From positions 87,361,580 to 87,425,579 of the forward strand of contig CM047425.1 in the NCBI GenBank assembly GCA_026168455.1: DNA of 64,000 bases, written 5' to 3'. Both the position numbers and the translations under genes were made by a program. Numbering within the stretch: the stretch's first letter is position 1; every line of letters starts with the position of its first letter. The notes under the pieces are model-generated. The model was not told where the DNA came from and searched no databases. It worked only from the letters and a program-made list of their open reading frames with translations. Below are positions 684 to 64,000 of this stretch, one piece after another. The DNA comes from Theocolax elegans (lineage: Eukaryota > Arthropoda > Insecta > Hymenoptera > Cerocephalidae).

Positions 684-2758
684 TAACCATCGACAATAAA
701 TATAAGTATATATTCGATATATACCTTTAATTACTATAAATTTAATGTTAAAATAATTCAATATTTTTAATAAGTATTCCTAGTTGTATTGAAATAAAAT
801 GAATTGCTATTATACATTGACAAGTAGAGTGCTGGACCGCCGAGAAGCGTATTTATTGATAAAACTTTGTAGCTTGTTTTCCGTCACGTATCCTGTAAAC
901 TTCAATATCGTACTGTATCTCGGAAACACGCAACGTTTTACCTGAGTATGTGTAAAATAAATATATTTCAGTTTTTTGACTGCTATTTCAAGTATGTAAA
1001 TAACACAAAATGCAAAGGAAGTAGATAAAGAACTTACTTTCATTTTTGTTTCAACACATAACCAGGAAAATATTTTATAAATACCAATTATTCGCTTATA
1101 AGGAGATATGAAAAATTTTGTAAATTTTTATTTGCATATTACTTCCATCTTCGTAAATGCATCAATTTCCAATAACTTTTTGACCTATGGGATACTCGTG
1201 CTTATATTAGCTGTTCACTTATTTTCTTTTGTATTCGTATAACATTAAAGTGCAGTATGTATAGTACTAGGAAATATGTATTACTCACAATGAAAATTAA
1301 TGTTATTTTCTCTTAAAAGGTATTATAATATTTACTTGACCCGTCAGAGTAATTATTGGCTAAATTAAATAGTAGCTTTTTGTAAGGGTGCAATCCGAAG
1401 GAAGCTTAATCAATTATTTGCACTTTAATTTCGCAAAACCAGTACATAAAGTTACTTTACATTTCCAAAAATATGATTTTGTTTTAAAATGCAATTCGAA
1501 AAGTTGCAATTTTATATAAAAGTGTCACGAAAATCAATGAAATTCGTGTCGTAATTGATAGTAATAATAATGTTTATTAATATCCAGAACGAGTAGTTAA
1601 TAATAGTGCAAGGTAAATCATAAATTGAAGAATCATCTTCGTGATATTATTTCCATCAATCGATCTGACGGTATAAAAATGTTGAATTAACTGTACTCCG
1701 GTTGCATTAATCGAATGTACAGACTCAATACGCTAAATCAAGTAAACTCTTTGTCTGACTTGGTTCTGCAACTCCTTCCTGATTCTCCGTAACTTGTTAA
1801 ATGCCCACCCTTCCTTTCCTGCTTTCCTTCTCTCCTTCTCTCCGTCTCTCGTCTCTCGTCTCTTTATCCGTTCCTCTTTATCCCTCTTTCCGGGGCAGCC
1901 CGCAAGTGCCACGTTCACTCGTCGGAGTCCCTTTAGACGCGACTTTAATAACGCAAGCACGTACGGACCGACCATATCCCCCTACATCCTGACCCTTTCG
2001 TTTCTCCATTGCCCTCTTACTCTCTTTCTATGCTATTCTCTCTCGTGCAGCTTTTCTCAGTCCCTCTTTGCTATCCTGGTAATGGTGTCCACTCGAATGG
2101 CAAACGTTGTTTGGAAATTTGCATTGGTGCGCTACTTGGACCTTGAATGCCCAGGGAGTCATTCGAGTGTCACTTAGTTCCTCACGATTTTATCCTTTTT
2201 TTACAGGTACACCCAGCTGTACACCCAGCTTATACGTTCGAGATACATGAATTACTGAATAATTCTGCACAGTTGAACATTTGACTGCCTGAATTATTGT
2301 CTTAATTTAACTGGCCAAATAAAACTCGTGGTTATATTATTCAGGTCATTTAAATTGCTAATGAATGATTTGCCGCTACAGAAGCAGAATATATAGTGAC
2401 ATAATTTCGGAGCTTTCCAAATGATAATTGTAAATTGCATCATTGTGAATGTTGTTCAATATAAATTGTTAAACAAATATTAAAACGTCAAGTTTCGTTT
2501 CAGCTTTAATGATTAAATACGTGTAATGTATTTCCGATTTTTATGACGGAATTCAAAAACTCAAATATCAAGAGTATTGGTTAAAACTTAGATCAGTTTA
2601 ACTTGTGCTCTACAAAATGTGAAATCGTACTAATTTTCCATAAAAATTTCTTCCGTACCACTTATTTTCAAAGATATTAACATTTCAAGATAATGAGAAG
2701 ATGTTACGGGCAATGTAGACAAATATAAACGATGCGCCGCATCGTGAATGGTAGTCCG
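684..2758. other. AT-rich noncoding stretch with a pyrimidine-rich island
   Basis: Mostly AT-rich sequence without recognisable genes or repeats. A GC-richer island lies at about 1790-2180 and begins with a long polypyrimidine tract. The 127-codon frame starting at 1794 is a product of that tract (Phe, Ser, Leu and Pro runs) and is not accepted as a gene. Confidence 0.5.
1804..1869 (+). repeat. Polypyrimidine tract with GTCTCTC repeats
   Basis: An almost pure C/T strand with three consecutive CGTCTCT-type units near 1843-1863. Mirror-like homopyrimidine DNA of this kind can adopt unusual structure, but no function is shown here. Confidence 0.7.
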
Positions 2759-2842
2759 TCAGTTAAAGCACTCGGTCCGTGGATCCGCGCCGTTTCGTCC
2801 ACCTTTTTTCGCTCGCTTCTCATCTTTTCATACGAAAGAAAG
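2759..2842 (+). promoter_or_regulatory. Candidate initiator and untranslated first exon with 5' splice site
   Basis: TCAGTT at 2759-2764 matches the arthropod initiator consensus. The following 80 bases are GC-richer and CpG-bearing. They end in AAG at 2840-2842, directly followed by GTAAGAGT, a strong 5' splice-site match. No DPE-like sequence sits at the usual +28 position. Initiator-like and splice-like strings occur by chance, so this is only a candidate for transcript evidence to test. It contains no convincing coding frame. Confidence 0.2.
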
Positions 2843-3900
2843 GTAAGAGTTCCACTTTTCCTTGAACTATCCAACTAGTTTTACATTCGAAATTATTCAT
2901 AGAAAGATAGACTATATTTCTTAGTTGCGAATTTTAACAAGGACTAAAGATATTTTTAGCCGGTACAGCAATTTGCCGAGTTTTTTTCAAGAAAGTCAAT
3001 TCGAGTAAATGTAATAAACTTTTTGGTTCTCTTTCTTGAAAAGGAAAGATACAGTTTTTAGATTTAATTAATTATAAAATCATTCACATTTGTCATTTGA
3101 TATAGGTTGAATAATGCTCTAACCCAAAACGTTTCAGATAATATAAACAACAGTGTTGATATAGCACTACCTCAGAGCTTGCGGTTATTATGAAATTTTG
3201 TTTACTTAATGTCTTGATTCAATTATGGTAATTAGTAGCTTATATTTTAGTTAGTTTCTAAGGACTTAAGTTTCACACATTCTTATACTTAAGTAAATAT
3301 ACTTAAGTCTTCGTAGAATTTGGTAGAATAGTTTATCTTACTACTTGCCTCAACTTACTTTTGAAAAATTAGTTTGCCAATTCTAATCAGGATACATTCC
3401 GCTTCGTTGTAATTTAATTTTACATAATCTCGGGTGAAATTAAACTGCAAAATTCAAACTAATATGGAAAACTTTATTAAATACAAAAAAGTAATAAAGA
3501 AAGTTATTGAATTATTGGCAACTTTATAATTATTACAGATAAATTGCGTTTTTGACTTAATGATTCATATCTTTTGTAATAAATTTCCCGTCTTTTAATA
3601 TGGTATCATATTTTAATACGAGCAAATACGTTTTCGTTATATCAGTCGAAACCTAATACACTGACAATCTCTTGTAATGAACCTGATTACACGGTGTATC
3701 GATTCTCGTTTGCATAAATAAGCTCTCTTGTAGTACGAAAAAAAAAATTATGTGTTTGTGTACACTATCGAAGCTGAATGTCAATCGTGAGCCACGTCAA
3801 TTAAATACGACAGAAAGGAGAAAAAAATGGTCGTGTCAAGACCAGATCTACCCAACGTATTTCTCAGCGCAAAATAGACCATTAATTCTTCTTCTGCGCG
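2843..3900. other. AT-rich noncoding stretch
   Basis: I see no gene, RNA gene or repeat here. If the donor site at 2843 is real, this would be intron. Confidence 0.5.
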
Positions 3901-3968
3901 TGGTCGTGAATGCTTTTCAATAACTCGGCTCCCTCCAGCGAATGTCGTTCATAAAGCATTCAAGACCA
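3901..3968. other. Inverted repeat able to form a 16-bp hairpin
   Basis: The arm TGGTCGTGAATGCTTT (3901-3916) is complementary to 3953-3968 at 15 of 16 positions, with a 36-nt loop. It lies in a CpG-bearing island. The stem is shorter than a typical insect pre-miRNA (about 22 bp), pairing does not extend clearly into the loop or flanks, and I do not recognise either arm as a known miRNA. Confidence 0.5.
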
Positions 3969-4120
3969 TCGAATTCCCGACGTTCGTCAACGTCTTTGAC
4001 GTGCGAGGGAAAGTCTCGGTGACTATACGTGTGTATGCGCGCATAAGCCGCTCTCATCTCTAAACCTCTTCAATAATCATAATGGTACGAGAGGAACATT
4101 GCGAGACTCCGGAGTAGCGG

Positions 4121-4180
4121 CACCAGCACCACCACCACCACCACCACTACCACCACCACCAGCACCAGCACCAGCTCCAG
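4121..4180 (+). repeat. CAC/CAG trinucleotide microsatellite
   Basis: Interrupted CAC repeats with interspersed CAG and CAT/CTA variants. Depending on frame it would read as Pro/Ala or His/Gln runs. The frame from the ATG at 4082 meets a stop at 4115-4117, before the repeat, and the Pro/Ala frame has no ATG after its upstream stop. I therefore treat it as a microsatellite and not as coding sequence. Confidence 0.8.
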
Positions 4181-4184
4181 CAAC

Positions 4185-6880
4185 TCAACTATATCTATGA
4201 AAGGTCCGCATGCTGTGCGCTAATGACCGGATCGATATAATATATACTTGCGCATCCTACCTAGATTTACGCCCATAACAATGTGCTTCGAGGAAATGCA
4301 CTCGGATTTTAACTTGCAAAATTGTCGAATCAGTTATTCAACGTTGAATATGAGGATGAACGTTTTCAATGGCTTACTACCCGTGTGTAGAATATTTAAC
4401 TCTTCTCATAAAAGATTAGGAAAATATTTGCAGAATTATTAAACCAACCTATAGATATCAACTCTTTCTCTTATAGTATATAAAAGAGCGAATAATCAAA
4501 TATTGTATACGTAAATCTGCAGATTTTACTGAAACATAATATCAGCATAAATATTGAAAATAAATGTTATTCTATACTATTGAGAAATTATAAGATATAA
4601 ATGGATTTCTTTCAAGCGGGTAATGTCACATTAGTACACTTCTTTTTGGGATTCTTAATTTCATCAGTTGAACAATACCGATTTAATTAATGATTTAATA
4701 AAACTTTACGAATTTTGAAAAAATCTATTCAAGATATATTCTTAAAATTCTAATCAGGCAAAAGTTGTTTTACCAGTGCAGAGAAGTTTTAATACTGTAT
4801 GTTAAATATATAATAATAATATGAAACTTTATTTATCCAAACGTTTATAAAAGTAAACTTATATTATAAGTATAATAAATAATATATTTTTTGATGCAAT
4901 ACAGAATTTATTTATTACAATTATTACACCAAATTAAATTATATTAAAAATTGTTATATTCCAAAGCAATATTCGTAAATAAAAAAACGCGGAAGTCTTA
5001 CACCATTCATTCAAATTCATTCAAATTTTTTATCAATCATATTTACAAATACGCAATTTTTACAATGCGCAATCGTGGGTAGCAAAATCAAAGATAAAAT
5101 CGCAGGCGTAAAACTCTCTTATATATGCAAATAAAAGAAAAATTTCGTCAATTGCAAGTTAAGGAACTCCACCTAATGGATTCCGAAATGTTACAAACCG
5201 CAAAATTTTGCCACACTATTTATGACTATTTAAATTAATAATTATTATTTGTAATCAAAACTTTTAAATTTGATTTATATTTATTTTTATTTTGTAAGAA
5301 TTAGAAATGTAAATATTTTTAATGATGTAATTCGACCAGCGTCACACTTGTAAACAAATTTTGTTTAGTATTTGATTGTGTATTAAATAATTTTTGAGAA
5401 AATAGTTTTCAGTGGAATACGTTTTTTTTTTTGTGTTATAAATAAATATTTATATTATTCATATCAAGCATCGCTCTCTTCTTCTAATGAATAACATTAA
5501 TTTCAATCTATGGGCTTAATTTAATAAAATAGTTTTTGTTTATTTTGATACACATTAATTATATAGTAATAATAGTGTATTATTTATTTTAATCTAAGAA
5601 ACTATTATCTTGAATCAAGAAAGTATTATTTTAAAATATTACTTTATTTCCATTGTATACCTTTAATTTGATCTAATTTCAATATATATTCTTTGGAATC
5701 AATAAAGAAGTTTTTTTAATATAAATATCTATTTATTCAAATCTTGATTAAATTTCATATATAAGTAAATAAATTTTATATTTACAAGTAAATATTCCAA
5801 AGTAATATAATGTATTTGGAACAATTAAATATTTATTTTTTTAAAATAAATTGATTTCAGAGAAATAAATTTAAGTGATTATATTACATTGTTTAGTAAG
5901 TTTAAATAAATTACTTTTTAAATAAGAACACATTTTATCAAATAAATTAATAATTAATGAAAAAACCTTCCAACATAGCCCAAATTCCACGCATTTGGTA
6001 AGGAGTAGTGAACAATTCAATGAAATATTTCGTTCAATCTTGAAAGATTACTAATTGAAAATTCCAGAATGAAGTTAAAGCCCGTACCTTTTCACAAAGT
6101 CAATTGTAAAGTACGCAGGAAAGCATACAGTAGCAAACGACCGGTACACGCTCCCTCGGTTCCATTAATTATTTATCGTAATGTGTGCTATCGATCCGTC
6201 TGCAGTTAACGCAAACTGCAGGGGGTTCGGATCCACGCGTATAAAGCCGATGATAAGGGCACCAAAGCGCGGGCAAAATGACAAAGTGCGTATGAGGGAA
6301 AACGAGTAATGTCAAGGGAGACACAGAGGGGAGGAATTGGATCCGAAAGATGGATCAAGCTCGATTAGACTTAATGTTTATTCGAGATGCGTACGTATAA
6401 CTGTCCTTTCGATGTAGTTTTCTTGATGGAAATAGGATTTGTGGTTGAGAATATTTCCTCATCTTACGATTTATGGGATTGACTGTGTGGTCCAAGGGAA
6501 CTTTTCATGTACAACTTGGATAAAGAAAAATAATATTTTGCAATTGTATTGTAAAGTAAAATATAGTGAAAAATAAGTATAAACAAGTTAAAAAGATTAA
6601 GCTTTGAAACAGTTTTCCTTTAAATTTATAAAGAGCGTGTGTTTATATCAGGAAGCGAGTAGTAAACCTTGCTAAATATATCTTATATATAGGTGTATGG
6701 GTTTTAAATCACCTTAGACTTTACAGGAATTGAGAGGCAGTTTCAAAGAAAATTTGAAAGATAATCAGCTTTAGACTTACGATAGACAGTTCCAAACATC
6801 ATATTTGTATTTATGTCTAGTAGAAGGAATTCCAGCGAAATGTTAAATTCTACTTGAAAGGGAAAAGGGAAAAGATTTGG
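4185..6880. other. AT-rich noncoding stretch
   Basis: Very AT-rich, especially 4450-5950, with poly-T and poly-A runs. A small GC-richer island lies at about 6110-6350. I see no gene or identifiable repeat. Confidence 0.5.
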
Positions 6881-8480
6881 CAAATTATACGATCGGCAAA
6901 GTGCCCGGTGCGAATTCAGTCCACGTATGTGCCGCTTATCTCGTGTGCGCACATCGATGGGAGCGCAACAAACCGTCATTAGTACCGTCGAATATTCCAT
7001 GACCGTTCCCCCCTTCTGCAGCCCCCACCGCGTGATCATTCCCTGTACCTTTTTGCAGTCTGCCCGAAGCCAAAATTTTAGAGAGAGCCTCGACACTCGC
7101 GTGCAATTAAGGGAGCGTTGTCTGAACCTCCCGGGAGCCACCCCAGTGGAAATGGTACGCATTCTACAGTCGGTTTCATGTGATCTTCCTGTTTGTCATT
7201 ATGCACACACAAAAGCTATAGGATTTATCAGTTTCACGGCGAAATATATACAGGCTATGAATTGCAAATTTTATTTATATTATTATATTGTATAGTTAAA
7301 TTAACTTTTTAACATATGTATCCACCTAAATTATTTTCAATTAAATTATTACACTAATCTATTAACCGAGGGATATTAGATTTTACAACCGATACGTTAA
7401 TTATTAACTCGTCATATAATGATGTCGTTAAAATTTTATATTAAAAAGAATTTGTTATTGTTTAGAATAATTAACTCAATCGATCTATCGCGAGTCTTAT
7501 TCAACTTTCACCATGTAAAAGTTATGTGCACTAATCAATATTAAAATTCAAGTAAAAAAATAATATTTAATACTTGCAATATCACAATATTTGAACGATG
7601 AGTGCACTTTCTTATATTTTATATTTTGTTTTGGACATTTGAAACCAGAATACAATTCATTTTATTTAATTAACTTATTTTCTTACATATAATATAATAG
7701 CACATTTTAAAAGTTGTATTTTGCTATAGGATAGGATTCTACAAAAACTTAATATAGATGAATGTTATATTCGCAATACGTGGATATGGATACTGAGCAA
7801 AAAATCTATAACGAGAAAACGAGAATATAAATATAATAAATATATATGTATGTCGAATATACTTGCTTATAAAAGTTTGTTTTCAAAGCATACCGAGTAT
7901 AATTTTACGCAATGAACAAACTTGATTATGAACTAATAATTATTATAATAAAGGACCGTGAAAAATCAAATCAAAATCCCGACGCTGGAACTCGCTGATT
8001 AAACGAAAGCATAACATCATTCGCGCGTGGAGTGAGGGACATTTAAATAATATCAATCAGCGAATTATAAGCGAACGCCCGGATATAAATTACCATAAAA
8101 GCCGGGTGACGTAAAATTTACCCCCCTCCTTTTGGCTCAGTCTATCGTTATCGAGTCGCGCTATCGTTTCTCCCTCAAATATGTTTATCCTCTCGCCGAA
8201 TGAATATTTTCAACGGTCGTGGCCATCCGCTGTTTGCAAGTCATTCATACATAATGAAGCACAATAATGTAGTGTGCGCACTTTGCATTAATTTTGGCGC
8301 TCCGCGTCGAGCCGCGAAGCCGTTTAATTTTGGCCGCTCGATGCGTATCGAGAATGGTACTCACGTGGGAGTATATGCGACGATTATACGCATCTCGTAA
8401 AGAATTAAAGCTTTCTCCGTATCTCCCTCTCTTACTCTCTCGATGCGTCGTCAATGATCTAGAGAAGTGGATGAGCGTTT
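6881..8480. other. Two GC-richer islands, no gene recognised
   Basis: The islands lie at about 6890-7200 and 8100-8450. The first holds the longest open frame of the window (139 codons, minus strand, 6743-7162) together with an overlapping 122-codon frame on the plus strand. Neither shows a domain, and overlap of open frames on both strands points to composition and not to selection. AT-rich DNA separates the islands. Confidence 0.45.
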
Positions 8481-45074: not shown

Positions 45075-45537
45075 TTAATAATGTTAATATATTATTTTTT
45101 TTTTTTTTATTCTTGATTTGTGCTCTCTTTTTCCTGGCACTTCCTACCGTTTATCCACCTGGGGACTTTAACGGTGTCCACCTACCACCTATGTGTGGGT
45201 GCTTTATCCCTGCCTTAAAACCCCACCATCTCGCATTCGCCCGGGGTTATGCCCGTGGATGAGGGAAACCTGTGAAGCAGGGAAAACCTCATCCGAGATG
45301 GCCGGTGTATTCGAAACATTCTTTTTGGGTGTCAAAGTCACATTGCGTAGGCCTTGACACCGAAACCGAATGTTTCACACCTCCCGCTCACGTTGTGAAG
45401 TGTGAAAAAACACCTAACCCGCCACGAAAGCCAAACCCATCCAAGTGCGAACCGCACTCAGTGCTGCTTAACTTCCGTGACCGGCCGAGGTGCGTCTCCG
45501 CCACTCCGCCACCGTGTCGGTTAATAATGTTAATATA
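45075..45537 (-). mobile_element. 5S-rRNA-derived SINE, copy 1, with 17-bp target-site duplication
   Basis: The element (45092-45520, minus strand) is bracketed by the identical 17-mer TTAATAATGTTAATATA at 45075-45091 and 45521-45537. The head, read 5'-3' on the minus strand, carries GTCACGGAAGTTAAGCAGC and GCGGTTCGCACTTGGATGGG, matching 5S rRNA box A and box C. A short segment just after the 5S part that is present in copy 2 is missing here. The body has a central hairpin with arms GAAACATTC (45313-45321) and GAATGTTTC (45368-45376), and the 3' end is a long A tail. This is the SINE3 type of architecture: Pol III promoter from 5S, body, A-rich tail. The 88- and 69-codon frames here are accidental readings. 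Confidence 0.9.
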
Positions 45538-47310
45538 ATAAATTAGAAGTATAAATTGATTGTAGCATGAATTTAATATATCGAATTTAATGCGCATTAA
45601 TTAATTATATATTATTTTAGAAAAGTAAATATTACGTATTGTATATTTATCGTATATTTACAGATTTAATTATATTATAAATAATAGTGTAGAAATGAAA
45701 TATGATATATATAGTAAATTTGTCAAATATAAGTTTATAATGAAGTTGTAATACCACTCATTAAAATTTGCACTGTAGAGTCTTTCAACTTATAGGGTCA
45801 ATATCTAACTTTCATCTTACTATGGCTGAAAATAACTAAACTTTTACAACTCTTTAACAAACAAGTTGCCTAGAAATAATTGTTCAGAAAATATTTGGTA
45901 TTGACATTTCAAAATAATATAGAAATCATTGTTTAATTATCGAAGAATAATTTTTATTTACCGTTCCAAATTTAAATGAGGGTAATACTTTATAATAAAA
46001 TTATCCTACAAATACCATTTTTTATTTACAAAATATGACTGTTGAAATGGAATGCTGTTCGAGTGGAAAGAAAAGAAAAATGTAAGATTGACAAATAGTA
46101 ATTCAACAATGCGAAAAAAATAGAAGAATAGTTTGACTGGTGCGTTAATCTAGCCGATCGAAAGCTAGCGCGTTCTCGCATCCCGTATTTCGCAAATCAA
46201 GCGGCAGCGTCAGCGTCTGCTCGTTTGACTCTCGTCGGCCATGCGCGTAAACCCGGCGAAGCTGACCGCGCTGTTAACGTCTGTCTGGTGGGCTTTTATT
46301 GGACCTAAAGCGGCCCGATGCTCGTAAAAGCGGGAGTCCATTTACAGTAACGTCCGGCTGTGTCCGTGGTACTCGCGCGTTTTCATTGCCCGGACATCCC
46401 CCCTCGCCCTCCTTTCCTCCCACCCTCTTTTCCTCCCTCCCTCTTTTCCTCCCTCGCGTTGACAACCACGGAAGTCTATTCCCTCGCGTGCATCCGTCAT
46501 CGTTCACGAGCCATCAGAACGCGCACTTTCGAGGAGAATTTCCGGTCGCCGAGCTTTTCTCTTTTCGTGGCCAACTTGGTTAAGACGTTTCAAGCGTGCA
46601 TTTTCCGATCATCTTTTGAATTCGTTTGAAAATCTGCTGGGTCCGAATGTGTTACGGTTCAACGAGTATATGCTTGAGAAATATCGACAACACTTTTTGC
46701 AGCTACCTTCCGTTACAATTTTTATACGCTAAAATAGTAAATTAGAAGTTTAGAAACTTGCGTTCTGAATCCGTAAAACTTAAATATGTGCAAAGAGACT
46801 CTTTTTATTAAATATTAGAAAAGTTTATATTGAGAAATAGGTCAAAGGCGCACGTACTATTTTAATTACGGTGTCGCGTTTTATTTAAACAAATACAATA
46901 TATAAGTTTCTACTTTACATTTATTAATTTTGGTTCAAAGGTCATTTCCTAATTTGTTTTCTTCGACAATGGCTAAAATATGCAATTGAACAGCAAATAT
47001 TGTATATCTCTATGTTACTAAAATTAAAAATGGTTTAAAATTATCTAATTATCTCGAAATTCTATTTCCGATCGATTGTAATTTTGATGAAACAGTAATT
47101 TATGAAATTAGATTTACCTTATACAATTTATACATCCATTAATGAAGAGATTTCTGGTCTAATTTTGCCAATAACGAAAGTGAAAATTTAATATCGTAAA
47201 GCACGGTTCTATTCTCGAAGGAAGACATGTCTCTCCCTAACGAAGCTAAAATTTAACTTTTTATATAAGGCAGAATAATAATTAAACTAATAATGGAATA
47301 TTTTATTAAG
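45538..47310. other. AT-rich DNA with a GC-rich island at 46.14-46.64 kb
   Basis: The island includes a polypyrimidine block (46399-46456) with two copies of a 17-bp unit containing CCCTCTTTTCCTCC. Overlapping frames of 77-94 codons on both strands come from this composition. No gene recognised. Confidence 0.5.
46399..46456 (+). repeat. Polypyrimidine tract with a tandem 17-bp unit
   Basis: C/T-only sequence in which the unit CCCTCTTTTCCTCCCTC occurs twice in tandem. Mirror-symmetric pyrimidine DNA of this kind can form triplex structure in vitro. No role is shown. Confidence 0.7.
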
Positions 47311-47465: not shown

Positions 47466-49834
47466 ACGGTGTATGCCATACATAATATTCAACAATTTCG
47501 TTATTATTCGAACTATTTAATTCTATAGTCGAATAATAAATTTAGTGAGTTCAATTTAGACTGCGGATACGTAACAAAATTAATTATCGAAAACTCATTG
47601 AGTTGTAAAATCCAGGCTTATTAGCTATTGAATTATTTAATATGTTTATACTACTTCTAAATAATTTTACCGCCTCAAATTTACACTTATAATTAAGCAA
47701 TTTTGCATTTTCGAGAGTTGAATGTTTATTTGCTTAGTTGCAGGTCAATGATATAAAATATACAAAATGCAATACTATATCGTCTAACCAATAATGTATA
47801 ATAAATATATTAGTTAAAATATTAGTTTAGAAATGGGATTGTTTTATGAAATTGACAATAAATGCTACAACCTGCATAAAATAAAAACACTTAATCAATA
47901 ATATACTATTACTTTATTTCTCAATTTATTCAGTTCTATACACTTATAATATATTTTGTATGTAGGAATTTTTAAATTAGCTTATATAACTGTTATCATC
48001 AGTTATATATCTCACCCCATCTTTTTTTTAATATTTTGAATGTTTTAATTTTTCGTTAACTTTTTTAAAGTATCAAAAAACAATTTGTGAGTGTCTATAG
48101 AAATCAACTCTTTGAATTTATCATGTTTATCGAATCCGTATAAAATATTGGAAAATGGTTGAAGATAAAAGTGTTGATTCCCTGTTCAGTATATAGTTTA
48201 TTTGTTTCAATCCGAGCTAATAAAATATCACATTTGCGAAGGATAAAACTTGATTTCAGTCTCGCCCACGCACAATACCGTTCGAGAAGGTATGTAAAAA
48301 ATATCTCCGCTATCGAAATTTACCGGAAATTTTCCAAATGGAAAGTGATAGGAAAAAATCGAAAGCAGTACGATCAAAACGAATGCAAGTGCATCGTCAC
48401 TCTTTGGTTAGATGTATAGGAGAACGCAAGCATGATAGGGAGACAAACAATTAGAAAACGAGGAATTTCACGACTAAACGAGGACACCACCCGCAACTTT
48501 TTCGGTCTCTCGATTTTTTTTATCGAGTTTTACCGAGGCGGTAGTCGAGGGCAACAATTTATTTTTCTACGCCCCTGCCGCGGACGTGTATACGGGTATA
48601 TACGTCATTTCGCTTCTCGTTCTTTCTTTCCGGCTTTTCATTAACGATATCTCTAGTGTTCGCTTCGTATATACTTCACCTTTTTCACGGCATATAGTTT
48701 GTCTTCTCTTCGGCCCCGACGTTTAGGACTGAAAGATATAATAGATTGTCCAGCGCGTACATCACGTATCAAAACTCACTGAAATTCATGATGTTCTATG
48801 CTTCGGAATTTCATCTTTTCTTCGTTCTCTCATTTCTCCACACTTTTCTCTCTCACTCTATCCCCCTTTCTCCCCATCTTTCTCTTCCTCGTTGCGCTTT
48901 ATCTCTATTTTTAGATATTTATGGTTCATGATTCACGTTCTCTTTTTAAGTAACATTATTAAAACATTTTACTTTGTTCTGTAGAAGCGTAATATATGGT
49001 AGTATAATACAAATATAAAAGCATCATTATTATTACACGGATTTTTATAAATAAGAAAAGACTACAAGGATATTTTGAATTGGCGCTATCGTTTTATACG
49101 AGTCTAAAGTTAAATTTTGTACTGACCGTTTTTACCTTTTTACCATATAAATATTTATGCAATTTACTAATAATTTTGTCATATATAAATACATTTAAAA
49201 CTATAAAGATCATTTAAAATTATTATTTAAATCTGAGAGGTTAATCTTATTATAGTTTAAATAATTAAATCTGTTCAGAACATTTTATGAACTTTATAGG
49301 CCGTTGTAATATTTATATTAACAATTTAACAGTTAGTTCAATGTAAGTATCACATTAATAAATTGGACAAGAATTTAGTATTTCAAAACTCTTACATTAA
49401 TTTTAAATAAACACTAAATTATTCATAAATTTTATGAAAATTTTATTTGACTTATCTTTTGAATAAAGTTTTGTTAAATTAATCAAATCTCAGGTGATAA
49501 ACGCAATTAATAAATAATTTGAAAAATATTATTTTCTAAATATCCATTGATTGTTATACACAGAATAATTTAATAAAAAAAATTCTAAGGGTAATTTATA
49601 ATGTATGTCGGGCATGATTTTTCTATTTTACTACTGCACATTTGAAAATAAATTGAATCGTAGTATAAAAATATGTATTTACTGCATGATAATTTTTGTA
49701 ATAAAAATATTAATTCAAATTTATTTAAAGCAAATTATTTTTATGAATTTCATGTGTTATTTGAGACATTAATTTTTTCATGAATGCAGAAAGAATACTG
49801 TTATTTTGTAAATGATACTTTCTAAACGAATGTA
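47466..49834. other. AT-rich DNA with an island at about 48.2-48.9 kb
   Basis: The island has frames of 61-86 codons on the plus strand without domains, and ends in a pyrimidine-rich run (about 48820-48905). The rest is AT-rich and featureless. Confidence 0.5.
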
Positions 49835-50310
49835 ATATAAATGATATATTACCAACGCGGTGGCGAAGTGGCGGAGACGCACCTCGGCCAATCACGAAAG
49901 TTAAGCAGCACTGAGTGCGGTTCGTACTTGGATAGGTGACACCATTCTTGTGCGGCTTTCGGGATCGGTTAGGTGTTTTTCCACACTTCACAATGTGAGC
50001 GGGAGGTGTGAAACATTCGGTTTCGGTGTCAAGGCCTACGCAATGTGACTTTGACACCCAAAAAGAATGTTTCCAATACACCGGCCATCTCGGGTGAGGT
50101 TTTCCCTGCTTCACAGGTTTCCCTCATCCACGGGCATAACCCCGGGCGAATTCAAGATGGTGGGGTTTTTAAGGGAGGGATAAAGCACCCACACATAGGT
50201 GGTAGGTGGACACCGTTAAAGTCCCCAGGGGGATAAACGGTAGGAAGTGCCAGGAAAAAGAGTGCACAAAATCAAGAATAAAAAAAAAATATATATATAA
50301 ATGATATATT
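49835..50310 (+). mobile_element. 5S-rRNA-derived SINE, copy 2, with 16-bp target-site duplication
   Basis: The element (49851-50294) lies between identical copies of ATATAAATGATATATT (49835-49850 and 50295-50310). It begins at the first base after the duplication with ACCAACG, the equivalent of the 5S rRNA 5' end (GCCAACG). It continues through box A (AAGTTAAGCAGC, 49898-49909) and box C (TTCGTACTTGGATAGGTGAC, 49921-49940). The body contains the hairpin GAAACATTC/GAATGTTTC (50010-50018 and 50065-50073) extended by GGTGTCAA/TTGACACC (50025-50032, 50051-50058). The tail is a run of A followed by AT. Mobilisation would need a partner LINE. Intact promoter boxes and a clean duplication suggest a fairly recent insertion. 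Confidence 0.92.
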
Positions 50311-62270: not shown

Positions 62271-62859
62271 ATAGGCGTAGACGATTCATGGATACCCATA
62301 GATATGTTATACATCTGTATAATGCACGCTTAAAACATTTTGCAAAATCACATCACAAAATATCGTAAATATATGTGCTTCCATAAATAAAATAGCACAA
62401 TAGCAAATTGTGAGCATCTAAAGTCCTGATTGTGGTTCATTTTTTTAAGTCGAAATACGATTCAATAAAAAGATGAATTTTCGTGAATTTTTAGAAATAG
62501 TGTAATAGTAATTTTTACATTACTGTCACATTTCCTCAGATTTATCGATCTAAATTATAAATTATTCAATGAATTCCATTACAATAATTATTGAAAAAAG
62601 TTTTCCGTGTATAAAAATAAGAGCATGTCCACGAATGAATAAGAATATTTAAAGTGAAACATTTCTTATTGTAGTATGTTGATACCTTCTAACTGACATT
62701 TTAAATCAAATGTCAATTTATATTATGCAGGATGACAAACACAACTTGTTTGTGATCTGGTATAGAAGAACAAATACACGTAAACATTCCAGGCAACGAG
62801 AGGAACTATTTTAAGTAATAAAAATCAATATATATAATGGTTTTTCCCACCACCAGATG

Positions 62860-62902
62860 GAGACGACTATATCTCTACACTCGTTGTAGAGATCGTCGTC
62901 TC
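62860..62902 (+). other. 17-bp hairpin upstream of the ribozyme
   Basis: GAGACGAC (62860-62867) pairs with GTCGTCTC (62895-62902), and ATCTCTACA (62871-62879) pairs with TGTAGAGAT (62885-62893), with a CTCGT loop and a small 3/1 internal loop. It lies directly upstream of the TATA box inside the element. Confidence 0.85.
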
Positions 62903-62907
62903 TTTTC

Positions 62908-62917
62908 TATATATATA
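62908..62917 (+). promoter_or_regulatory. TATA-box-like sequence
   Basis: TATATATATA followed by GCC, about 50 bases before the ribozyme. A start site about 30 bases downstream would put the whole hammerhead inside the transcript. AT repeats are common in this window, so by itself it is weak evidence. Confidence 0.35.
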
Positions 62918-62958
62918 GCCGCAGAACATCTTGCTGGCGTCGCGGTTCATCTTGCGAC

Positions 62959-63027
62959 AGGCGTCTAAGGTAAGATCTCCAGTTCCTTACTGAGGAGTCC
63001 AAGCTGAAGATCGAGGACGAAACGCCT
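62959..63027 (+). ncRNA. Hammerhead ribozyme, type III topology
   Basis: All invariant core elements are in place. The cleavage triplet GTC ends at C62965, the first core strand is CTGAGGA (62990-62996, CUGANGA), and GAAA is at 63019-63022. Stem III is AGGCGT (62959-62964) with ACGCCT (63022-63027), 6 bp and open-ended. Stem I is TAAGG (62966-62970) with CCTTA (62985-62989), extendable by two A-T pairs past a bulged T. Stem II is GTCC (62997-63000) with GGAC (63015-63018). Predicted self-cleavage is after C62965. Stems I and II are both capped by loops of natural size. About 15 base pairs plus the fixed core bases make a chance match very unlikely. Activity is not proven. Confidence 0.9.
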
Positions 63028-63039
63028 TTAATTGTTTTT

Positions 63040-63045
63040 AATAAA
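63040..63045 (+). promoter_or_regulatory. Polyadenylation-signal-like AATAAA
   Basis: AATAAA lies 13 bases after the ribozyme and is followed by G/T-rich GGCCGTGCTCTGGG, an arrangement typical of a cleavage and polyadenylation site. It may be fortuitous in AT-rich DNA. Confidence 0.35.
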
Positions 63046-63170
63046 GGCCGTGCTCTGGGAAATTCCACCAACCATAGTGGACAAAGAGTACAATGAGCCT
63101 ACTTTATTCTAAATGTAATTTATTTAGTTCGGTGTGACCGATAATACATACATATATAAAAATCAATATA

Positions 63171-64000
63171 CTTGACGCAAACTATATTTATTTGACTTTA
63201 GTAATAAATAAGTTTAAAATTTTAAATAATTAATTTGAAAAAGAGTGTAGAAGAGCGCACTTAAAGCTCTATTTTACGTGGAAAAGTCAGAGAACTTTGA
63301 AAAGAATTTGACCATGCAACTGAATTAACGAAATCTTGACCATAAAATAACGAGGTTTGAACTTGTAAAACAACAAACCACTTACAAAATATTCGCTATA
63401 ACATCACGTCGATCCTCAACTCGACAGCCTCTCAAAAATTAAATTTCAAAAGCCGATCGCATCCATTCGAACCCGCTTTATTACTCGCTCAATCAACCGT
63501 TCCGCCCTCTTCTACAAAATGACGTAAATCCACCGATGAACTTTTATTATCACCCGGATGCTACCCGCCAAGCGGCGAACAATTGCGCCGTTGCCCATTA
63601 AAATTTACGATCCCTTCCCCCTGCAGCAACCCTTCTAAACTCAGAGGATCGTTATCGTGCCTAATCAGTCGCGGATTAGGGCTTAATCCGTGGGGGTGCT
63701 ACTATCCAGACGGACATGCAGACGCGATTGCGCATGTACGCATGAAGGAGACAGAGGAATGCGATTCCATTGGAAGACTATATAGCGCGTTCAACCCCGA
63801 ATTATCGGTCCTCGCCCTCGAGGCTTAAGGTCCTTCCATCGATAGTATACTATTCTATCAAATTGCTTAAAATTCTAACTTCACGTAAATTGTATTTCCG
63901 TTTATATGTTCATTCCAATTTCGCTAATACTTGTAAATTGTATGCGTATATAAAATTATATTTAATTAAAAATTACTATTATACTATTTTATTTGTTATT
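63171..64000. other. AT-rich flank and a GC-richer island at 63.4-63.83 kb
   Basis: The island holds an 81-codon plus frame (63583-63828) without recognisable domain. A B-box-like GGGTTCGAATGG occurs on the minus strand near 63465 but lacks a D arm. No gene recognised. Confidence 0.45.

Follow-up and report, generated by a model that had tools for sequence, protein, structure and literature searches.

The window, the 64,000-nt stretch of DNA that we analysed, carries at 62959-63027 on the plus strand a type III hammerhead ribozyme motif, identified by its match to RF00008 and by alignment of its family (alignment A1). The preliminary description had proposed, from the letters alone, that all core bases are present at this position, that the core strands and stems follow type III order, and that a GUC triplet precedes the cleavage site; sequence reading and scripted pairing uphold these points, and the RF00008 match agrees with the type III order. 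Stem III pairs 62959-62964 with 63022-63027 (6 bp), the GUC triplet occupies 62963-62965, and cleavage is predicted from the topology between C62965 and U62966. Stem I pairs 62966-62970 with 62985-62989 (5 bp), the core strand CUGAGGA, with G at position N7, occupies 62990-62996, and stem II pairs 62997-63000 with 63015-63018 (4 bp); the segment 63019-63027 comprises the GAAA core strand (63019-63022) and the stem III 3' strand (63022-63027). All parts of the type III hammerhead definition (core CUGANGA, GAAA, a UH cleavage site, and stems I-III) are present. The covariance-model search that the preliminary description had put forward as a check returned a match to Rfam Hammerhead_3 (RF00008) at 36.6 bits and E=3e-6 for a 601-nt slice (62700-63300), below the gathering score of 48.5 bits, a shortfall that bears on curated listing and not on the fold; the motif was absent from both whole-window Rfam scans, probably because of their faster filters. 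A motif scan of both strands of the window gave this single hammerhead and none on the other strand, and, under a second-order Markov null, type III hammerheads with stems equally long or longer arose in 1/2000 simulated windows and ones with looser stems in 16/2000. We conclude that 62959-63027 is confirmed as a real type III hammerhead motif, with self-cleavage itself a prediction.

Two neighbouring features were noted. The stem III 3' strand can alternatively pair with a downstream AAAGGC (63024-63048, -6.5 kcal/mol), which could help product release after cleavage. An AATAAA at 63040 was given no weight as a poly(A) signal, there being 198 AATAAA on the plus strand of the window. A phage origin of the motif was considered and rejected: partial hammerhead patterns were collected from 106 plus at least 120 viral stretches; the six distinct type III motifs in 225 viral loci have no loop longer than 8 nt and no pairing run longer than 3; one exact 34-place pattern found no relatives in IMG/VR or GTDB contigs; and none of five viral matches to stem III plus stem I continues with the type III GAAA strand. 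Among 116 distinct viral cores that share one stem II type, none has G at N7 (68 T, 41 C, 7 A); a type II hammerhead may be present at one viral locus, L227.

The preliminary description, correct as to the hammerhead, its type, coordinates, cut site and stems, overlooked a kissing helix between loops I and II and the repeat family to which the motif belongs. The two sides of the kissing helix lie at 62974-62982 (loop I) and 63004-63012 (loop II). In the window, Watson-Crick pairs can form at 8 of their 9 positions, a level equalled by 0.5% of shuffled loops, or by 3.7% once G-U pairs are allowed; the longest unbroken run is 5, matched by 11% of shuffled loops, or by 42% with G-U. By the longest-run figures, the window loops alone are only suggestive, and the family evidence decides. 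At 63007, where the window has A, all 51 subfamily 1 copies that span the ribozyme (20 loci) have G, which makes the kissing helix 9/9 Watson-Crick in the commonest sequence; 31 of these 51 copies have identical ribozymes, and single copies lose a pair. At second-subfamily loci, G is likewise present at 63007 in 48/48 counted copies, and 63008 is changed in 47/48, turning a U-A pair into U-G, the 48 including some copies counted twice and one that belongs to subfamily 1. Because G63007 supplies the very pair that the window lacks, the A at this position of the window copy is a damaging substitution.

At -22.0 kcal/mol, the nested minimum-energy fold retains stem III and the helix between the loops but loses stems I and II to other pairing; the three hammerhead stems without a pseudoknot amount to -13.5 kcal/mol. 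Since this nested fold uses the kissing helix, the helix competes with stems I and II in a pseudoknot-free model; given a pseudoknot, stems I and II and the kissing helix can coexist. Such pseudoknots were predicted in about 40% of hammerheads in a survey (PMC3088659, in extract).

A search of the 658-Mb genome with 62700-63200 gave at least 116 matches at 90-100% identity (best 40 of 1479 candidates scored), and a second subfamily, about 85% identical, gave at least 58 matches (best 40 of 2341 candidates scored); these copy numbers are lower bounds, and the unscored candidates do not count as confirmed copies. Full-length copies mostly extend from query position 139 (62838) to 457-464 (63156-63163), with extremes of 131 and 469. 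Copies in tandem arrays are mostly spaced 392 bp apart, and in 13 of 14 joints a 65-75 bp spacer, missing in the window copy, separates the units; the fourteenth is an inversion joint. The unit has a GC content of 0.43 and, when circularised, the genomic unit folds to -129.2 kcal/mol as compared with -89.5 (sd 6.0) for shuffles (z -6.6; 0/200 as stable); the subfamily 2 circular unit has z -5.2 (100 shuffles). The reverse complement of the circular unit folds to -128.0 kcal/mol, equally well, so that folding does not reveal which strand is used. Of the characters that define non-LTR retrozymes, the family has the short tandem unit, the hammerhead, the GC content below 50% and the lack of coding sequence, and it carries a type III hammerhead where most described animal retrozymes have type I, which makes it a variant and not a plain member of that group. 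We conclude that the 392-bp unit, short, non-coding, tandem and self-paired, is on its sequence characters a retrozyme.

The window holds a truncated monomer of this unit at 62838-63155 (plus strand; 318 of 392 positions), delimited by the ends of genome copies and by the unit structure. It is flanked by an exact 15-bp target-site duplication, with a left copy at 62818-62832 and a right copy at 63156-63170, and 62833-62837, between the left copy and the retrozyme, is filler or target sequence. The duplication is one of four exact 15-mer repeats spaced 200-500 bp in the window, and its boundaries match the points at which most full-length genome copies begin and end. Within the copy lie, in order, a long hairpin (62860-62902) that diverges between subfamilies (31/43 identical in the unit comparison); hairpin A (62918-62938, from the fold); hairpin B (62939-62958), which abuts both A and stem III and, from the fold and the subfamily comparison, is likely a sister of A; the ribozyme; and, at 63127-63155, as judged from comparison of 3' ends, the 5' half of a presumed reverse transcriptase (RT)-start stem-loop, with a GTTCG arm and an AC/AT-rich loop. 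The copy has one 3' end, at the first, tail-less site, and is truncated at 62838. All six of its reading frames contain stops. With a single ribozyme and a broken kissing pair, the window copy is probably dead, and could probably at most cut a read-through transcript.

Several observations concern the copy and its surroundings. The single copies in the window (62838), L254 and L256 are truncated at almost the same point on the 5' side, at positions 1, 5 and 3 of the unit, perhaps by an RT stop at the base of a structure. A dimeric unit within the window copy was rejected, self-similarity being not above shuffles. Ten open reading frames of the window matched no protein family, and one homologue search was also without result. 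A 230-nt slice at 45311 (45311-45540, minus strand) is very stable (z -6.2); similar sequence lies about 4.5 kb on at 49725-50123 (minus strand) and at L244:4050, and represents another repeat family.

Comparison of one unit from each subfamily shows where the family is constrained. The ribozyme is identical at 66/69 positions (96%), hairpins A and B, which precede it, at 39/41, and 62903-62917 at 13/15; the 3' part is identical at 111/137, the spacer at 58/74 and the first 22 positions at 19/22, and most of the unit outside the ribozyme and hairpins A and B has 72-87% identity. From these sequences, the ribozyme looks to have been under selection during subfamily divergence. Within subfamily 1, changed cells amount to 0.6% in the ribozyme core, 0.9% in the stems and kissing helix, and 1.2% in other loops, so that the core is hardly better kept, as is expected of young dead copies. 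Within the family no pair has changed on both sides, and five measures of covariation were no better than shuffles, because the copies are too alike.

The insertions have a distinctive layout. An insertion runs from minus-strand units, through a head-to-head joint whose place varies, into plus-strand units, so that both outer ends are 3' ends, or else it is truncated on one side. We mapped 40 pieces, drawn from the window and 40 loci, and 20 of them have 3' ends on both sides. The element has two alternative 3' ends, one after ACATACATATA and one about 30 nt farther on, after ATTCATTTTTCAA, and the tail between them is present on one side only in 18/20 two-ended insertions, on both sides in 2/20 and on neither in 0/20. 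Direct repeats of at least 10 bp (12-17 bp) flank 19/40 pieces as compared with 78/1950 mismatched flank pairs, two of the 19 being plain A/T runs. Some pieces that have no flanking repeat come from insertions cut by other DNA (L239, L243), and the outer ends of the one in L239 share 13 bp. The 12-17 bp target duplications accord with non-LTR retrozymes, in which duplications, when present, are longer than 4 bp; the optional tail between two 3' ends and the tandem or partial tandem copies accord with the definition of a Penelope-like element (PLE). No consistent poly(A) tail was found at the retrozyme ends examined.

Internal 5' ends fall within 3 nt of the cut site in 3/67 cases as compared with about 1.2 expected (0/37 in subfamily 1 and 3/30 in subfamily 2). 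With 5' ends hardly enriched there, the DNA does not show cleaved RNA as the template; circles or uncut tandem transcripts would fit as template.

The two interrupted loci have features of their own. At L239:2872-5320 (G000:C2:54736871-54739319) one unit breaks off inside the ribozyme and continues into 2.5 kb of sequence with long broken frames and no Pfam match, after which comes the tail; this seems to be a chimeric insertion that has taken up foreign sequence. The DNA hosting it codes, at L239:7419-8132 (minus strand), for a Pox_A32-like ATPase (Pfam E=1.2e-6), which we take to suggest a Maverick/adintovirus-like element. In L243, a 6.3-kb insert (2040-8333) with no 120-aa frames splits a retrozyme insertion inside the spacer, and the outer flanks, read by eye, share a probable target duplication.

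The same genome contains PLEs. There are at least 98 GIY-YIG matches (best 150 of 1712 candidates scored), a number of them arranged as minus/plus pairs. PLE family A codes for an RT (RVT_1, E about 1e-4, under the Pfam cut-off) and a GIY-YIG domain (above the cut-off), and a search with its 3' end gave at least 41 matches (best 40 of 571 candidates scored). Among the matches listed, 18 are at least 99% identical, and 14 of these form 7 inverted pairs, all 7 with the tail on one side only (ends at query 211-217 vs 256-261); of the other four, two are single ends with the tail and two are ends without it that lie on one strand. One PLE pair, L287/L288, is flanked by an 11-bp duplication, AAATTTTATCA, read by eye, and PLE family C has ends both with and without the tail. 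The RT and GIY-YIG coding region, present in the resident PLEs, is absent from the 392-bp unit. A lizard PLE analysed in vitro provides a precedent for this layout: both target strands are cut and extended, at AT-rich targets; RT starts at two internal sites, and the sequence between them is the 30-40 bp tail that genomic copies may or may not have; and hammerhead mutants leave insertion unaffected (PMC11167929, in extract).

Retrozyme and PLEs also show a limited similarity of sequence at their 3' ends. The regions around the start sites of retrozyme subfamily 1 and PLE family A align with a score of 43.5, reached by 0/2000 dinucleotide shuffles; the other nine combinations of five PLE families and two subfamilies are not significant (606/2000 for subfamily 2 vs PLE A). 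The sequence ACGAACGATAG of the retrozyme tail recurs in two loci, L309 and L310, that were chosen for a 76% match to the PLE A 3' end (4 and 7 of 2000 shuffles as good; for subfamily 2, 174 and 14 of 2000). The PLE A score is also attained by 12/2000 random slices of the window, and the L309 score by 35/2000, so the 3' similarity is supporting, not decisive. A GTTCG...CGAAC-type stem is present around the start sites in folds of both the retrozyme and PLE A, and its subfamily 2 counterpart is TTCGG...CCGAA. Between the retrozyme units and 30 PLE loci there is one nucleotide match at E below 1e-3, in L297. This 60-nt, 82% match (L297:207-263 to unit positions 193-252) lies near a family B PLE and is an old fragment or shared sequence. 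PLE family A itself contains a hammerhead-like motif with core TTGAAAA...GAAAC (L288:2316, L285:2316, L310:337), possibly the minimal type I form in its U3-A8 variant.

Since the head-to-head layout and the one-sided tail are common to the retrozyme and the resident PLE, we take the mobiliser to be probably Penelope-like, and we regard it as quite likely that the element is a type III retrozyme with a 392-nt unit and a kissing-loop ribozyme, inserted by Penelope-like machinery. By analogy with known elements, tandem units would be transcribed and cut at C62965/U62966 into 392-nt monomers, which, as in animal retrozymes, a host ligase may close into circles. A putative Penelope-like RT/GIY-YIG enzyme would then insert the element: both strands of an AT-rich target would be cut, with the cuts staggered by 12-17 bp, RT would start inside the RNA at either of the two sites bounding the ~30-nt tail, at the GTTCG...CGAAC stem-loop, and would read through more than one unit, either going round or moving along, and the two strands' products would join head to head, the outcome read from the genomic insertions. 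It is reasonably likely that the co-resident PLEs themselves mobilise the retrozyme, priming both cut strands at different internal RNA sites to leave one tailed and one tail-less 3' end, and that the retrozyme mimics the RT-start stem-loop of the PLEs in the way that SINEs mimic the tails of LINEs.

Other readings account for parts of this evidence. Mobilisation of the same type III retrozyme by a LINE, with ordinary target-primed reverse transcription and inversions from twin priming, is unlikely. LINE insertions, too, have 10-20 bp duplications, 5' truncation and inversions, and twin priming could also produce inverted copies, but the retrozyme has two fixed 3' ends, one per insertion end (18/20), as do the resident PLEs (7/7 pairs) and as does a PLE in vitro (PMC11167929, in extract), and its examined ends lack a consistent poly(A) tail.

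That the element is instead a satellite-like or internally deleted PLE derivative, spread through uncut tandem transcripts, with the type III hammerhead as a roleless passenger, we consider improbable. The ribozyme and its adjoining hairpins are the part best conserved between subfamilies, the kissing helix is intact in the family's commonest sequence, and a single 60-nt match in L297 is all that links the units with the 30 PLE loci at E below 1e-3. These points weigh against a passenger, although the 5' ends show no clear clustering at the cut site and hammerhead mutants were without effect on insertion in the PLE in vitro system (PMC11167929, in extract). It is very improbable that the sequence is what remains of an integrated circular RNA agent of the HDV-like (epsilon) or zeta type: such agents have either loop-pseudoknotted type III hammerheads (PMC7936874, in extract) or hammerheads in both orientations (PMC11721086, in extract), but the other strand of the window has no hammerhead, the window copy has stops in six frames, and the family is made up of nearly identical DNA copies, in tandem and dispersed, that have target duplications. 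A chance hammerhead-like sequence, to which the score under the Rfam gathering cut-off, the G at N7 and the competing fold might point, is hardly credible in view of E=3e-6, 1/2000 null windows, the kissing helix, and conservation across subfamilies.

The preferred reading, a type III retrozyme inserted by Penelope-like machinery, bears on the enzyme that mobilises animal retrozymes. PLEs have been named a strong candidate mobiliser (PMC7229834) or a likely one (PMC7761336), but, in the available text of the latter, a shared motif had been lacking. Here, one genome contains both a retrozyme and PLEs, which share an unusual insertion signature and resemble each other somewhat in the tail; this makes the mobiliser question directly testable with purified PLE enzyme; the signature points to machinery that may move ribozyme elements in animals. 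The type III kissing-loop hammerhead resides in what is probably an animal retrozyme, and type III occurs mostly in plant retrozymes in the literature as represented by the extracts cited here. A literature search, made mostly outside subscription journals, returned no type III animal retrozyme and no retrozyme tail signature.

Similar in architecture are the termite, dipteran and HDV-like hammerheads, which, like the window ribozyme, are type III with a 5-bp stem I and a loop I-loop II pseudoknot (PMC7936874, in extract). The view in the preliminary description that a type III form is unusual in an insect-like genome holds only partly, the termite and dipteran pseudoknotted examples having already been published in that paper; its extract reports the termite genomic motifs as isolated, and states that its authors found no type III pseudoknotted hammerheads in hymenopterans, hemipterans or a cockroach. 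The ribozymes of the toad and termite agents have an extra helix I hairpin and a 6-bp stem II, whereas in the window ribozyme the loops are simple and 14 nt long, stem II has 4 bp and the kissing helix is longer (PMC7936874, in extract). The HDV-like (epsilon) and zeta agents are further defined by hammerheads on both strands and open frames, neither of which the window copy has. Plant LTR retrozymes share the type III hammerhead with the 392-bp unit, but are 1-1.5 kb long, with LTRs, a PBS, a PPT and 4-bp duplications (PMC11722881, PMC7229834, both in extract), whereas the retrozyme described here has no such LTR pair and has duplications of 12-17 bp. Hammerhead-bearing PLEs resemble the retrozyme in being tandem, with both strands extended, an optional tail between two RT starts, and AT-rich targets (PMC11167929, in extract), but they code for RT and GIY-YIG and carry minimal type I hammerheads (PMC7761336, in extract), whereas the 392-bp unit is non-coding. 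Metazoan non-LTR retrozymes, tandem repeats of about 170-400 nt with a type I hammerhead in each unit, share with the 392-bp unit the tandem arrangement, a GC content below 50%, self-pairing and, when present, duplications of more than 4 bp, and differ from its type III hammerhead with a 9-bp kissing helix (PMC7229834, in extract). For metazoan retrozymes, the mobiliser is not deducible from conserved motifs, according to the extract of PMC7761336, whereas the insertion signature of the 392-bp unit points to one.
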